The translations under genes and the position numbers were made by a program. The notes beneath the pieces are model-generated. The model searched no databases. It was given only the letters and a program-made list of their open reading frames with translations, and was not told the DNA's origin. 64,000 nt of DNA from a virus, in IMG/VR virus record IMGVR_UViG_3300030333_006336, positions 1 to 64,000 of that record; one strand, written 5' to 3'. Of the stretch, positions 5,908 through 27,135 are shown one piece after another (position 1 is the first letter of the stretch; the number at the start of each line of letters is the position of its first letter).

Positions 5908-6549
5908 TTATACAATAATATCTGCTATTCCTAGTTCTACAGCTTCTTCTGCTGATAAATAGACGTTAACTTTACGTTCCAGCATTTTTTTCAGTTGAGA
6001 TTTCGTCATTTTTGTTTCTTCTACTAAACAATTTGTGTACATTTGTTGCAATTCTTCAATTGCTTCCATCTCATTCATCATATTATGAAGGCTTCCGTGA
6101 TTACCTCCGATAACCGAATGCAGCATCACGCGGCAGTTTTTGCCAATCTTGCGTTCTCCCTTGGTGCCAGCGGCCAATAACAAAACGCCTGCTGACATTA
6201 CTTTTCCGAGTCCCACCGTATGTATTGGTGTCTCATCTCTTACCATACGCATAATATCATATAGGGCAAACATGTCGTCAGCAGATCCCCCATAGGTGGA
6301 AAGATAGAAAGTGATCGGCTTGGGATCTTCTTCTTTCATCTTGTTTACTTCATTTAAGTAAACCATTGCGTGTGCGAGTTCTGCGATTTTCTCTTCAATA
6401 ACTTCGGCGAACAATCCTAATACTTGAAACTCTGGCTCGGGCTCTTTTCCGCCGCTTGGATCTAAAATAATTATCTTCTTGTCGCTTCCTTCCACTTGTT
6501 CTTCGTCGCCTATAAATGTGGTTACTGCTTGCTTAATTTTTTTAATCAT
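5908..6549 (-). CDS. ClpP-like serine protease, copy 1
   Basis: The 213-residue product has the ClpP/crotonase-fold layout: a YLSTYGGSADD turn forming the oxyanion region, the nucleophile serine in MSAGVLLLAAG (about residue 119), and the catalytic histidine in MLHSV (about 144). The third triad residue would lie in the C-terminal third. The usual C-terminal ClpX-docking features were not assessed. I chose ATG 6549 because GGAGGGT precedes it at good spacing; a GTG at 6558 lies within that signal. It overlaps the previous gene by 8 bases. Roles could include processing of phage or host proteins; a second, different ClpP-like gene lies at 12170-12775. Confidence 0.88.
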   Translation of the reverse strand: MIKKIKQAVTTFIGDEEQVEGSDKKIIILDPSGGKEPEPEFQVLGLFAEVIEEKIAELAHAMVYLNEVNKMKEEDPKPITFYLSTYGGSADDMFALYDIMRMVRDETPIHTVGLGKVMSAGVLLLAAGTKGERKIGKNCRVMLHSVIGGNHGSLHNMMNEMEAIEELQQMYTNCLVEETKMTKSQLKKMLERKVNVYLSAEEAVELGIADIIV

Positions 6550-6952
6550 TTGGTGCACCCTCCGTAAAAAAAGAAGCCATCACTTCTTTGTGTTGGTTAA
6601 TAAATTTCATAGCTGATTTCCAATCATCGAAATCTAAATGAGGATGGAAAAACTTTGGATGAAGATATATTAAAGTATCGATGGAGTTCTTCTTATAACG
6701 AGCAATCTCTTCCTCATAACGATAGTTAAACGCATTAATGTTGTGGGCGCTTTCCTCACTCTCTAACATCTTTTCTAACTTGTACATGCGCCCATAGGAA
6801 AAGTTTTCCATACCTTTGGCTATCAAAGACACGCTGATTAACTGAGATGCTCTTAGTAGCGATAGGGCAAGTCGTGTTGAGCGGTAAAAATATAACAGCT
6901 TACAAGTAACATACCCAAAAACAAACATCAATACATACAGTCCCCATTCCAT
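6542..6952 (-). CDS. Membrane-anchored hypothetical protein (136 aa)
   Basis: One N-terminal membrane segment (about residues 4-23, ending at CKLLYFYRS) is followed by a charged helical cytoplasmic-looking domain rich in aromatic residues near HPKFFHPHLDFDDW. No family recognised. It is the first gene after the promoter at 7001-7029 and is translationally coupled to the ClpP-like protease, which hints at a membrane adaptor or anchor for it; that is speculation. Confidence 0.65.
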   Translation of the reverse strand: MEWGLYVLMFVFGYVTCKLLYFYRSTRLALSLLRASQLISVSLIAKGMENFSYGRMYKLEKMLESEESAHNINAFNYRYEEEIARYKKNSIDTLIYLHPKFFHPHLDFDDWKSAMKFINQHKEVMASFFTEGAPND

Positions 6953-6963
6953 AAATCCATCCT

Positions 6964-7001
6964 AAAAAAATAACCACTAGAGTTGAATACCCTAGTGGTT
7001 A
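6964..7001 (-). terminator. Rho-independent terminator overlapping the next promoter
   Basis: On the minus strand a 10-base-pair perfect stem (TAACCACTAG with CTAGTGGTTA) and an 11-base loop are followed by seven T residues at 6964-6970. It ends the transcript of the acidic protein gene at 7033-7914. Its 5' arm starts immediately after the -10 box of the following promoter, so transcripts from that promoter would begin inside the arm and could not form the full hairpin. Confidence 0.85.
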
Positions 7002-7029
7002 TTATAATCTCTTATTGACTAATTGTCAA
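7001..7029 (-). promoter_or_regulatory. Sigma70-type promoter for membrane protein and ClpP-like unit
   Basis: The minus strand has TTGACA, 17 bases, TATAAT. Both boxes are consensus. The expected start point falls within the 5' arm of the terminator at 6964-7001, separating this unit from late read-through. Confidence 0.88.
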
Positions 7030-22860: not shown

Positions 22861-23832
22861 TTAATTTTCATTGTCAAGACACTCCCTACTAATTCGGTTG
22901 AGAATCGTGCGTAGATCCTCCCAGTTTAACTCGCCAAACCCATCATTGCGCATCATTCCCAGTACTTCTGTTTTATTAAAATCACACTCAAAATTTTCTA
23001 TGGATTCTTTAACATGAATTTTAGATTGAACCGACATCTGAGGGGCATAAAGCTGCATCATTTTATAATTGTGTTGAATTAGGCTTTTATTTTGGGCCAC
23101 GTTTGAATAAAACTTTAACTTACTGCCTGATTCTACACAATAATTGATCACCTCGTCAATAGTATAAGTCTTCTCTTCTTTAAGAAATGGTAGACGAGTT
23201 TGCACAGTTTTAAATCCTGCACCCTTTACTCCTGGGAGGTTATCAGATGCATCGCCAATGATTGCACGTGCGAGCGCCATGTTAGTAGGATGCACCCCAG
23301 TGTTCTCAATGATTCTTGCAGTGTTAAGCAGCTCTTTCGCTGTGGGCCTTAGAAGGATTGTCTCGTCATTACAAACCTGCATAAAGTCTTTGTCATTTGA
23401 AACGATAATCTTCTGCCAGCCCTGGTAATATTCCATGCTTGTAATGTAAGCAATAACATCATCAGCCTCGATCTCTGGCATCATAAACTGCATAATTGGC
23501 ATATGATTTAGATATTCAATTACCCTGCTCTGTTGCCACATTTTATTTTGTAGCTCTTCGTCTTCTGTAAGGTTGTGGAAAGTTCGATTTAATCTAATAG
23601 GCTTACGTCCTTCCTTGTAGTTTTTATCCATGCTCTTTCGTTTCTTAGAGCCGTTAGGTCCATCCCACACGACTACGATCTGATCCGGGTTAGTATCTCG
23701 CACAAGTTTCTGTAGGATCTTAATGAACCCTTTAAGTCCGCCAATAGGTTGTCCATTAGTGGAGAGGCTTGGGTCTACGATGTACGCCCTAAGATAAGCG
23801 TTAAGAGCGTCAATGATTAATAGTCTTTTCAT
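22861..23832 (-). CDS. 5'-3' exonuclease / flap endonuclease
   Basis: The 323-residue enzyme matches the Pol I N-terminal domain and T4 RNase H family. Metal-binding acids appear in LLIIDALNAYLR, EIEADDVIAYI and IVSNDKDFMQV; the helix-3-turn-helix DNA clamp is GDASDNLPGVKGAGFKT. It would remove RNA primers and flaps. Here it is a separate gene, while the polymerase half of a Pol I-like enzyme is at 30095-31291. ATGA overlap with the UVDE gene. Confidence 0.93.
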   Translation of the reverse strand: MKRLLIIDALNAYLRAYIVDPSLSTNGQPIGGLKGFIKILQKLVRDTNPDQIVVVWDGPNGSKKRKSMDKNYKEGRKPIRLNRTFHNLTEDEELQNKMWQQSRVIEYLNHMPIMQFMMPEIEADDVIAYITSMEYYQGWQKIIVSNDKDFMQVCNDETILLRPTAKELLNTARIIENTGVHPTNMALARAIIGDASDNLPGVKGAGFKTVQTRLPFLKEEKTYTIDEVINYCVESGSKLKFYSNVAQNKSLIQHNYKMMQLYAPQMSVQSKIHVKESIENFECDFNKTEVLGMMRNDGFGELNWEDLRTILNRISRECLDNEN

Positions 23833-24764
23833 ACTGCCATCCTTTGTTCATTCATTATAACACGATATTCCAACAATGCAAGTTCTTTATGCTTGGCCTC
23901 GATCATGACGTCGAGATCATGACCGTAGTCATTGAAGGAATTGCGAATCATATCAGAGTGTGCTTGTGGTTTAATCTTTGGATTGTTGTACTCTACAGAC
24001 CGAGACTCGGCATAGTGAACCACAGGTTTGATATCACCCCACGTGGACAACGCTGTTTCAAGTGCCTCTTGTTCTGTCTGGCCTCCGGGATGCAACATGT
24101 GGTGGTGGTAGTCAAATACGATTGGAATTCCAATGCGCTTATACACACCGTCATACAATTCTTTTGTAGAATATAGGGATGTCTTGTCGTCGTTTTCAAC
24201 AGTCAATCGTGTGCGAACATTCTCTGGTAGTCGTTCGAAGTTGCGACAGAAGTTGTCAAGTGCGAATGGCTTGTCTCCGTATGCTGCACCAACATGAATG
24301 TTAAGCTTGGCATAAGGTGTACGGGGTAAGCCAATCATGTCGAACAAGTCGCCATGTACTTTGAGATCTTTGTATGTAAGCTGGAACACTCGCTCTTTAG
24401 GTGATGCAAGTTTGTTGAATGGTCCTGGGTGAGATGTAAGCCGCATGCCATGTTGCTTGGCAAAATTACCAGCTTTCTTACACGCTGCCAAGATCAATCC
24501 GTAATCTGGTAGTTCTTCCATTTCATATTCACTTGCCCACGGAATGATGTCAGAAGACAGGCGATAGAAATAGATGTCATTCTCCAGATTCCATTGTAGA
24601 ATCTTGTTTAGATCTCGCACATTTTGTAGAGCAAGCTCGGATGCATATCCGATACCCCTCTCCTTGAACGTACGCTTGATCATAGTCCTGTTAGTTGTGA
24701 TACGTTTCGACTTGGGGCGTTCTGAGAACCCCTTGTTGATACACGCATAGCCATAGTTACGCAT
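23829..24764 (-). CDS. uvsE: UV damage endonuclease (UVDE)
   Basis: A 311-residue TIM-barrel endonuclease that nicks 5' to UV photoproducts, starting alternative excision repair. Characteristic blocks are GYACIN near the N-terminus, ELALQNVRDLNKILQWNLEN, FYRLSSDIIPWASEYE, LTSHPGPFNKLASP, AKLNIHVGAAYGDK, LTVENDDK and FDYHHHMLHPGG, including the histidines and glutamates that bind metal. It is paired with the 5'-3' exonuclease in one transcript, a sensible repair pair. Its ribosome binding site sits in the 3' arm of a terminator hairpin (24767-24809). Confidence 0.95.
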   Translation of the reverse strand: MRNYGYACINKGFSERPKSKRITTNRTMIKRTFKERGIGYASELALQNVRDLNKILQWNLENDIYFYRLSSDIIPWASEYEMEELPDYGLILAACKKAGNFAKQHGMRLTSHPGPFNKLASPKERVFQLTYKDLKVHGDLFDMIGLPRTPYAKLNIHVGAAYGDKPFALDNFCRNFERLPENVRTRLTVENDDKTSLYSTKELYDGVYKRIGIPIVFDYHHHMLHPGGQTEQEALETALSTWGDIKPVVHYAESRSVEYNNPKIKPQAHSDMIRNSFNDYGHDLDVMIEAKHKELALLEYRVIMNEQRMAV

Positions 24765-24766
24765 AG

Positions 24767-24809
24767 AAAAAACCCTCCTGTTTGATTATATTATAACCAA
24801 TCAGGAGGG
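24767..24809 (-). terminator. Terminator hairpin whose 3' arm is the next gene's ribosome binding site
   Basis: Minus strand: CCCTCCTG (24802-24809), a loop of 21 bases, CAGGAGGG (24773-24780), then TTTTTT (24767-24772) and ATG three bases on. It ends the transcript of the His-rich protein. The 3' arm AGGAGGG is an ideal Shine-Dalgarno for UVDE, and a promoter -10 box lies in the loop. Confidence 0.85.
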
Positions 24810-24818
24810 CAAAGTCAA
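24790..24818 (-). promoter_or_regulatory. Sigma70-type promoter nested in the terminator
   Basis: TTGACT, 17 bases, TATAAT (24790-24795) on the minus strand. The spacer contains the 5' arm of the terminator, so RNA started here lacks that arm and leaves the UVDE ribosome binding site free. A second overlapping TATAAT occurs at 24785-24790. Confidence 0.82.
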
Positions 24819-24830
24819 CAAGTTTTTTAA

Positions 24831-25100
24831 TTAAAATCGAACAACTACTTGCCACGATCCAGGCACCCATGCGCCTCGACGTGTATAGTGCCCTGGCACC
24901 CATCTCCAAATGAAGTTTGGGTTGCTGTGGGCGTATACCCAATGATTACGATGCCAACGAACTTGATGTCCATGCACACGCGGAGGCGGTGCAGGGCGAT
25001 GACGCTGAGCATGGCGATGTTTGGGGCGATGCATATGTCGAGGATGAGCCTCGGCAGTGTCGACTGTCCCCATTAAAAGTAGTGCGAATAGACTAGTCAT
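24831..25100 (-). CDS. Secreted histidine-rich small protein
   Basis: The 89-residue protein has a short signal peptide (MTSLFALLLMGTVDTAEA, likely cleaved after AEA), then a His/Arg/Pro-rich region with about a dozen histidines, and ends in WRWVPGHYTRRGAWVPGSW. The last part resembles the W-x-PG-(H/Y) repeats of small bacterial envelope proteins. It may sit in the periplasm and bind metal or the cell wall. It follows recA with 9 bases between and precedes a terminator. Function unknown; host origin is possible. Confidence 0.75.
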   Translation of the reverse strand: MTSLFALLLMGTVDTAEAHPRHMHRPKHRHAQRHRPAPPPRVHGHQVRWHRNHWVYAHSNPNFIWRWVPGHYTRRGAWVPGSWQVVVRF

Positions 25101-25109
25101 GTTTTTCTC

Positions 25110-26267
25110 CTATGCTGGGTGATGGGCCACTTCTAGTGGCAAGTCGTCTGGGTCTGAATAGAATGTGTCAGCTGAACCTTCACGTTTATCAAACTTCTGA
25201 ACGACTTCTTCATCCATTAGACGGATGACATTAGCTTTAAATTCATTATCAGTTGTAATTAATTGGGTCCACTTTGATGGTTGGAACTTTTTAGTGTATC
25301 CGTCAGGCATGCTTAGTGTGTACCATGCACCTGCTGAAGTCAGATGTTCCGAACTCTTGATGGCATCAAACCAGCTTTCTTCATCCCGAATCCCGATCTC
25401 CTCAGTGCCCCATAAGATACGGAATGCACATGATCTACCTTGTGTTCCAAAGCGAGATTTTTCTAGTTTAACTTTAACCTCAGAACCAATTCGGAAACCT
25501 TTATCATCAGTGACAAAGGACGACTTTGCTTTTCTTCCTGTCAACCATATCCTCAATGAATAAGAATAGTGCATTGCCTTTCCACCCGGTGTAATATAGG
25601 GAGTGGTCATTGCAGTGATTCTTGCGTTTGGTCCTTGAGGGATATTTGTCTTTAACTGGTTAAGTACAATTAACGTAGCCTGCTTGTCAGCCAGAGGGAT
25701 TGTTAACTTTGACATACCCTTGGCCAAGATTCGTGCCTTCACAGCCATCGAAGATTGAGGATTGAAGTCTCCCTCAACGTCTGAAATCGATGGGGTAAAC
25801 GCCAAAGAATCCCAGATAAATACTAACTGTTCGTCTGTTGCGCCAAGCAGTTCTTCGATTGTTTCAAGAACAAATTCTACCGAACTAGCTTGAACATACA
25901 TAAGCTGCTCTAGATTGCACCCTGCTCGCTCCAAAAATGAAGGGTCGATAGCAGACTCAGAATCAAAATAAACGATAAGCTTGCCCATTTTCTGGGCGTT
26001 AGCGGCTATCTGGGCCGCCATGTATGACTTACCTGTTGATTCAAGACCGGCAATCTCTGTCACTTTTCCTACAGGAACCCCAGCAACACGACCTTTGCAG
26101 ATGATCGAGTCAAGCCATCGAGAGCCTGTGGGGATCCATTCTTTAACGGAGGTAGGATTATCTCCGGTTAGATCGTGGGCGACATTGCGTCCCGCTTTCT
26201 TATTCACTAAGGTCATCAAATCCTGCATGGATACGCGACCGGCTTTAGTCTTGGCCTTTCTCGGCAT
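25110..26267 (-). CDS. recA: RecA/UvsX-like recombinase
   Basis: A 385-residue strand-exchange ATPase. Walker A is GLESTGKS (74-81), the catalytic glutamate region is FDSESAIDP, Walker B is LVFIWDSLA, and the L2-like region is around PGGKAMHYSYSLRIWL. The acidic C-terminus ends DPDDLPLEVAHHPA. I chose ATG 26267 because AAGGAGA precedes it; an earlier start at 26300 would lie inside the dam gene without a site. It repairs and recombines phage DNA with gp32-like protein. Confidence 0.95.
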   Translation of the reverse strand: MPRKAKTKAGRVSMQDLMTLVNKKAGRNVAHDLTGDNPTSVKEWIPTGSRWLDSIICKGRVAGVPVGKVTEIAGLESTGKSYMAAQIAANAQKMGKLIVYFDSESAIDPSFLERAGCNLEQLMYVQASSVEFVLETIEELLGATDEQLVFIWDSLAFTPSISDVEGDFNPQSSMAVKARILAKGMSKLTIPLADKQATLIVLNQLKTNIPQGPNARITAMTTPYITPGGKAMHYSYSLRIWLTGRKAKSSFVTDDKGFRIGSEVKVKLEKSRFGTQGRSCAFRILWGTEEIGIRDEESWFDAIKSSEHLTSAGAWYTLSMPDGYTKKFQPSKWTQLITTDNEFKANVIRLMDEEVVQKFDKREGSADTFYSDPDDLPLEVAHHPA

Positions 26268-27135
26268 ATTGCTCTCCTTGGTTATTTTCAATTGTAACAT
26301 AAACTTTGCGCTGTGGCAAGTTCGTAATGACTATTTCTGTAGATTCTTTTGTCTTGTTCATCCCATAGGTCCACTCGACTTTGTGAATCTGATAGTCTTG
26401 GTATAATGTTCTTATCTCTTCGCAATCTCTATACGAAAGAATCCAGTTGTCTCGCTTTCTCAACAACGAGAACAGTGCAAGATGCTCAAACCCCTTATGC
26501 ATATCACCGGACATACCATAATAGTTGTCGCTGCCAGGTGGCATAAAATAAGGAGGATCCAAATATAGATAACAGTCGTGATTTTTTATTGCTTTCTTAA
26601 AATCTGCGCAGCGTACGGTAAAGTTATCGACTTTAAAGTTAGCCATCTCATCAATCCTAGACTCTGTGAAGCGTTTACATGAAGCTTCTGCTGAATAACC
26701 TCCCGTCAATGTTGCGCCAGAAAAACTACTGCGATTAAGTGCGTATACTTTTGCTGCTAGTTCGATTGTGGGCGCATGTCCTCGCTCTAAGGCAAAAGCA
26801 ATCTCTTCTTTGAAGCGAAGAAAGTCTTTTTTCCTTAGCCCTCTCTCGCGAAATGGGTCCTTAGTCTTATCATAATCATACAATTGAAGACGTCGAAAGC
26901 TTCTGGCAGTCGCGGCCAGTTGCTCAGGCTTTTTTAATAGAGTTTGCCAAAACCAGACAATCGGCTTGAACGCATCATAGCCGTGTACTGTGATTCCTTT
27001 TTCAACTAATGCCAACTCAAATGAACCACCCCCAAGAAAGGGGGAGCAAAGCTCCCCACAATCATCGGGAATGAATTTCATTAATGTATCAACGGCGCGG
27101 GTTTTGCCGCCGGGATATCTTAATGGACTTTTCAT
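26245..27135 (-). CDS. dam: D12-class DNA adenine methyltransferase (Dam)
   Basis: A 296-residue methyltransferase with all D12 motifs: RYPGGKTRAV near the N-terminus, the AdoMet loop FLGGGSF, ALNRSSFSG, and catalytic LYLDPPYFMPPG (DPPY at about 193-196). It ends with an extra tail after ITNL. ATG 27135 overlaps the preceding stop as TGATG. It is intact, unlike its relative at 1029-1799. GATC-type specificity is likely for the family but cannot be proven here. Confidence 0.94.
   Translation of the reverse strand: MKSPLRYPGGKTRAVDTLMKFIPDDCGELCSPFLGGGSFELALVEKGITVHGYDAFKPIVWFWQTLLKKPEQLAATARSFRRLQLYDYDKTKDPFRERGLRKKDFLRFKEEIAFALERGHAPTIELAAKVYALNRSSFSGATLTGGYSAEASCKRFTESRIDEMANFKVDNFTVRCADFKKAIKNHDCYLYLDPPYFMPPGSDNYYGMSGDMHKGFEHLALFSLLRKRDNWILSYRDCEEIRTLYQDYQIHKVEWTYGMNKTKESTEIVITNLPQRKVYVTIENNQGEQYAEKGQD

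Follow-up and report, generated by a model that had tools for sequence, protein, structure and literature searches.

A predicted promoter nested in a terminator-like hairpin that contains the Shine-Dalgarno sequence of a phage UV damage endonuclease gene

Introduction

The leaders of bacteriophage T4 genes e, soc, 49, and I-TevI carry hairpins that sequester the ribosome binding site (RBS) and contain nested late promoters (reviewed in PMC3014915). In the gene e type, the long RNA arriving from upstream hides the Shine-Dalgarno (SD) sequence, and the RNA from the inner promoter, made without the 5' arm, is translated. The T4 promoters are gp55-dependent late promoters (TATAAATA) that serve timing, the e hairpin has no T-tract, and the genes concerned are lysis or late genes under temporal control. 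Tn10 and Tn5 protect their transposase from outside transcription. In IS200, the transposase is shielded by two separate stem-loops, a terminator and an RBS hairpin (PMC3196728). The Extended Start Associated Sequences (ESAS) of Cluster K mycobacteriophages combine a 13-bp sequence, GGGATAGGAGCCC, with conserved 17-bp repeats, and their function is unknown (PMC3203893).

Here we describe an element that precedes a UV damage endonuclease (UVDE) gene in a window of 64,000 nucleotides, out of the 67,669 bases of IMG/VR record IMGVR_UViG_3300030333_006336. Its predicted logic resembles that of T4 gene e with an intrinsic terminator added. As in gene e, the SD is paired in the modeled read-through RNA, and a promoter with a putative start site lies inside the hairpin. 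By contrast, a T4-type late promoter is not present at the UVDE promoter, which instead reads TTGACT-N17-TATAAT and is sigma-70-like; the hairpin of the phage element is usually also a terminator, and UVDE is a repair gene. With IS200, Tn10, and Tn5 the element would share the termination of incoming transcripts, the hiding of an RBS, or both, but one stem would do the two jobs divided between stem-loops in IS200, and it sits at a fixed phage junction rather than in a mobile element, heading UVDE, a deaminase, and other phage genes and not a transposase. ESAS are likewise inverted repeats just 5' of start sites that recur within a phage group, yet their sequence is conserved, whereas here the arms vary among relatives and only the pairing is kept; the ESAS 13-mer is absent from positions 24740-24840. 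A GC-rich stem and a U-tract are common to this element and to ordinary intrinsic terminators, but here a promoter lies inside and the 3' arm is the SD of the next gene. Searches with literal terms in a mostly open-access literature found no description of such a combined promoter, terminator, and SD element, a weak indication of absence.

Results

The window encodes a tail sheath, a major head protein, a UvsX-like recombinase, a gp32-like single-stranded DNA-binding protein (SSB), a DNA polymerase, a B12-type ribonucleotide reductase (RNR), and GroEL, and therefore belongs to a contractile-tailed phage. Genes on the minus strand follow the order SSB, a 369-aa gene, a methyltransferase, the UvsX/RecA-like recombinase (25110-26300; PF00154, phrog_97), and a small His-rich ORF (24831-25100), and then the element, UVDE (23829-24764; PF03851, E 1.3e-57), a 5'-3' exonuclease, a DnaB-like helicase, and RNR. 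The recombinase belongs to the upstream unit that would be terminated, and UVDE is the gene that the element would serve. Homologues of the His-rich ORF, with 32-43% identity, occupy the same place in loci L088, L089, L106, L137, L163, and L177. The relatives are presumably marine, as we take several of the source metagenomes to be. No cultured relative with RNA data was found, and the best UVDE matches in the phage collection were below 45% identity.

All named parts of the element lie on the minus strand. An earlier note, made from the sequence alone, had described a stem followed by TTTTTT as a terminator for the upstream unit, its AGGAGGG arm as the SD of UVDE, and a TTGACT-N17-TATAAT promoter overlapping the 5' arm and the loop. 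Each of these parts is present. The -35 hexamer TTGACT (24813-24818) begins 12 nt after the stop of the His-rich ORF, and the -10 hexamer TATAAT occupies 24790-24795. The promoter matches the sigma-70 consensus at 11 of 12 positions, with a 17-nt spacing inside the usual 16-18 nt, the sigma factor of the host being assumed. Promoter-like matches in general are no more frequent in the window (53) than in shuffled sequence (44.6), and the promoter call therefore rests on the 11/12 match together with conservation. The SD AGGAGGG (24773-24779) lies in the 3' arm, 8 nt before the ATG at 24764, and the T6 tract (24767-24772) forms part of the SD-to-ATG spacer.

The stem noted earlier, CCCTCCTG (24809-24802) with CAGGAGGG (24780-24773), proved too small. 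The predicted hairpin has nine outer pairs between GCCCTCCTG (24802-24810), an anti-SD arm within the promoter spacer, and CAGGAGGGT (24772-24780), and eight inner pairs between TTGGTTAT and ATAATCAA (24782-24800) around a 3-nt loop; the inner stem takes in half of the -10 hexamer, the rest of which reaches into the loop. The computed fold of -24.1 kcal/mol (z -4.99) was equaled by none of 200 shuffles and ranks among the two top-scoring terminator-like structures of the window. The pair of arms occurs once in the 64 kb and in none of 100 shuffles. The stable GC-rich stem is followed directly on its 3' side by the U-tract, as in an intrinsic terminator, although the terminator rules applied, like the sigma factor, are assumed to hold in the host. 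On the opposite strand no T-run follows the stem, and the signal is therefore one-way.

By the usual sigma-70 spacing, transcription is predicted to start at 24782-24784, 6-8 nt after the -10 hexamer, and RNA starting there would lack the 5' arm. Folding of the two RNA forms agreed with the insulator logic proposed earlier: opening the SD is predicted to cost about 18.9 kcal/mol in the read-through RNA, in which every SD base has an unpaired probability of 0.0, compared with 1.2-1.3 kcal/mol in RNA starting at 24782-24784.

Homology to UVDE, at 79-92% identity, brought in 80 further loci. In 76 of the 81 loci, UVDE, or a deaminase gene immediately upstream of it, is headed by a TTGAC-type promoter whose hexamers stand 16-18 nt apart. 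We analyzed the 37 distinct promoters, which had been selected by UVDE homology and not by their arms. The duplex between each spacer and its own leader averaged -13.1 kcal/mol, compared with -9.4 kcal/mol when spacers were swapped between loci, a difference reached in 0 of 5000 permutations (z -8.6). When each spacer was shuffled on its own, 16 of the 37 loci were significant at p<=0.01 and 19 at 0.05; among 34 promoters that serve helicase, recA, and SSB genes in the same phages, none was significant (Fisher 5e-6). The SD itself varies among relatives (GGAGGG, GGGGG, AGGGG, GGGAGG), and the anti-SD arm changes along with it in L015, L024, L027, L038, and L056. Promoter and SD are kept without a significant hairpin in 18 of the 37 distinct relatives, so that insulation is dispensable rather than essential. 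The UVDE tree requires about nine gains or losses of the hairpin, as labeled by an energy cut-off of -14 kcal/mol at which borderline loci may be miscounted. Together with the absence from about half of the relatives, these changes indicate a feature that is readily gained or lost. Seven loci (L020, L022, L025, L044, L065, L066, and L073), most of them without the SD hairpin, carry a short palindrome wholly within the -35/-10 spacer, such as CTGCCaccgcGGCAG in L044 and CTACTTcaAGTAG in L073. In L030 and L177, which share the same element, a CTG after the T-tract lies in the UVDE frame 10 codons before the ATG and is a possible non-ATG start served by the hairpin SD.

A viral collection was scanned with the pattern TTGACN5CCTCCN8TATNNTN6-24GGAGG, with CCACC arms as a control. 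The complementary arms were found in at least 119 viral stretches, compared with 19 for the control. Among 68 distinct elements found in this way, the six pairs on the inner side of the seed lay outside the query. At pairs 1-6, Watson-Crick combinations numbered 48, 35, 41, 35, 37, and 34, where 21.7, 20.0, 22.6, 23.7, 18.7, and 17.6 were expected (0 of 2000 column shuffles each), and several pairs showed all four Watson-Crick types. Thus the arms covary among relatives, as one check suggested in the earlier note had foreseen, and, in line with another, the -10 hexamer stays within the loop or inner stem. Because relatedness survives column shuffles, the argument rests jointly on the covariation, the swapped-spacer test, and the control promoters. 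Four or more T residues in a row follow the 3' arm in 27 of 37 extended hairpins and in 6 of 32 non-hairpins (Fisher p 9e-6). The gap from -10 to GGAGG ranges from 6 to 17 nt; arm and SD coincide exactly in most elements, and the start codon follows GGAGG by 3-9 nt.

A second phage lineage (L112, L130, L143; about 64% polymerase identity in L112 and L143) has a like element at another place, before a 75-aa gene of unassigned family. The arms plus T5 occurred only six times across 257 Gb of bacterial and archaeal genomes, and four of these cases are Megasphaera species. The Megasphaera elements (L222-L225) combine a nested promoter, terminator, and SD with 12-18-bp arms before an RNase T-type exonuclease gene (PF00929 domain), apparently a convergent bacterial case.

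The element holds its position at the junction between recA and the exonuclease-helicase genes as the following gene changes. The upstream gene is co-directional at every locus, and 3-20 nt usually separate its end from the -35 hexamer. The following gene may be UVDE, a deaminase (PF00383) with or without UVDE, a pyrimidine-dimer-glycosylase-like gene (PF03013) in the UVDE slot (L104/L163), or a 62-63-aa ORF (L088, L089); in L137 the exonuclease comes next and has an SD of its own about 60 nt further on. The element therefore belongs to the junction and not to UVDE, and L104/L163 suggest that UV-repair genes are exchanged behind it.

The window contains a second nested junction, at about 6968-7029 on the minus strand, in which TTGACA-N17-TATAAT is followed by a terminator (AATAACCACTAGGGT/ACTCTAGTGGTTATT) and a T-run; at 7029, TATAAT adjoins AACCACTAG..CTAGTGGTT and then the T-run. 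On its 3' side lie a 136-aa ORF and a ClpP-like protease (5908-6952, minus strand; PF00574, E 3.8e-31 for 5908-6558). The start point is predicted to fall inside the 5' arm. This junction is conserved in all 26 distinct clpP-locus sequences with a recognised promoter, the window included. In these 26 sequences the 5' arm starts 1-5 nt past the -10 hexamer, so that initiation would remove most of the arm; the mean predicted fold is -19.4 kcal/mol for the full RNA and -5.3 kcal/mol for the nested RNA. The fit is poorer at L234 and L256, where most of the arm remains after the start point. Pairs 6-9 covary, in a count that favors pairing because the arms were picked as stems. A scan with a clpP-type pattern found at least 119 viral stretches, and 72 of the 73 distinct ones precede the same small protein family. 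Elsewhere in the window (42986-42960, minus strand), a promoter-like site has its -35-like TTGTCT within the 3' arm of the terminator-like hairpin that precedes it.

Discussion

We consider it probable that the UVDE element is a compact boundary separating two transcription units by means of a terminator, a nested promoter, and a hidden SD. Promoter activity, the start site, termination, and translational blocking are what we infer from the observed sequence parts, predicted RNA folds, covariation, and conserved position. Polymerase coming from the recA and His-rich genes would copy the entire hairpin, and the hairpin with its U6 tract would halt most of it; RNA that escaped would keep the UVDE SD shut in the stem. 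The nested sigma-70 promoter would initiate 3' of the 5' arm, and the hairpin could not form in its RNA because transcription begins after that arm. This RNA would not be terminated, and its SD would be free 8 nt from the ATG. The downstream unit, which comprises UVDE and probably the exonuclease as well, would thus depend for its expression on its own promoter only.

Chance pairing between pyrimidine-rich spacers and the purine-rich SD contributes to the signal, since the SD is always purine-rich and CT-rich spacers pair with it partly by chance, as the swapped spacers show. As the whole explanation it was rejected and has a negligible probability, being contradicted by the permutations, the column shuffles, and the control promoters. 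The inverted repeat could also be a DNA operator, or a leader regulated in trans by a protein or small RNA, with no insulating role. Palindromes near promoters are often operators, and in several relatives without the hairpin the spacer contains other short palindromes. However, complementarity persists while the arm sequence differs by locus and the gap varies, unlike a fixed protein site, which led us to reject the operator; a trans-regulated leader is disfavored because the promoter's own RNA, without the 5' arm, leaves no structure to regulate. We regard this explanation as very improbable.

Selection might instead act on one of the two proposed functions. If it acted only on an intrinsic terminator, the SD would be a convenient G-rich arm in a tight gap and its hiding a by-product. 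The association of T-runs with hairpins fits this proposal, as do L137 and L179, where hairpin and T-run persist although the following gene seems to rely on a different SD further downstream, and the clpP-type junction, whose terminator arms leave the SD out. Against it, hairpins of 12-15 pairs cover the SD in L034, L035, and L042 but lack a T-tract, and most arms coincide exactly with an SD placed to serve a start codon. We hold selection for termination alone to be possible but doubtful. Rather less likely, in our judgment, is selection only for hiding the SD, as in T4 gene e, such that mistimed read-through RNA would go untranslated with weak or absent termination. The T4 e layout is the same, with a fold over the SD and no T-tract (PMC3014915), and the T-less hairpins agree with it, but T-runs are concentrated behind hairpins, the window has T6 after a GC-rich 9-bp stem, and loci that do not use the SD still keep the terminator. 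Whether L034, L035, and L042 block translation only, and L137 and L179 terminate only, is a question that their sequences raise; taken together, these loci suggest selection for both functions, to differing extents. The insulator logic of the earlier note draws support from the comparative tests, with the qualifications that about half of the relatives have promoter and SD without the hairpin, that some with the hairpin lack the T-tail, and that others have hairpin and T-tail but do not use the SD.

More broadly, we give an even chance to the proposal that, in this marine phage lineage, start-inside-terminator junctions are ordinary punctuation of co-directional units in at least two designs. 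In one, the 3' arm would double as the next SD; in the other, the 5' arm would be the stretch from -10 to +1. The recA/exonuclease junction would then be an insulated expression slot in which genes (UVDE, deaminase, pyrimidine-dimer glycosylase, and small ORFs) are exchanged while compensatory change preserves the punctuation.

In conclusion, the element would unite a terminator, a promoter, and an RBS lock in one natural insulator some 55 bp long, which covariation maintains at a fixed junction and which recurs elsewhere, in four Megasphaera species. It would provide a testable rule for where transcription starts and stops in such phages, with the design of reporter constructs ready-made, and would show how dense phage genomes can part neighboring units without added DNA.
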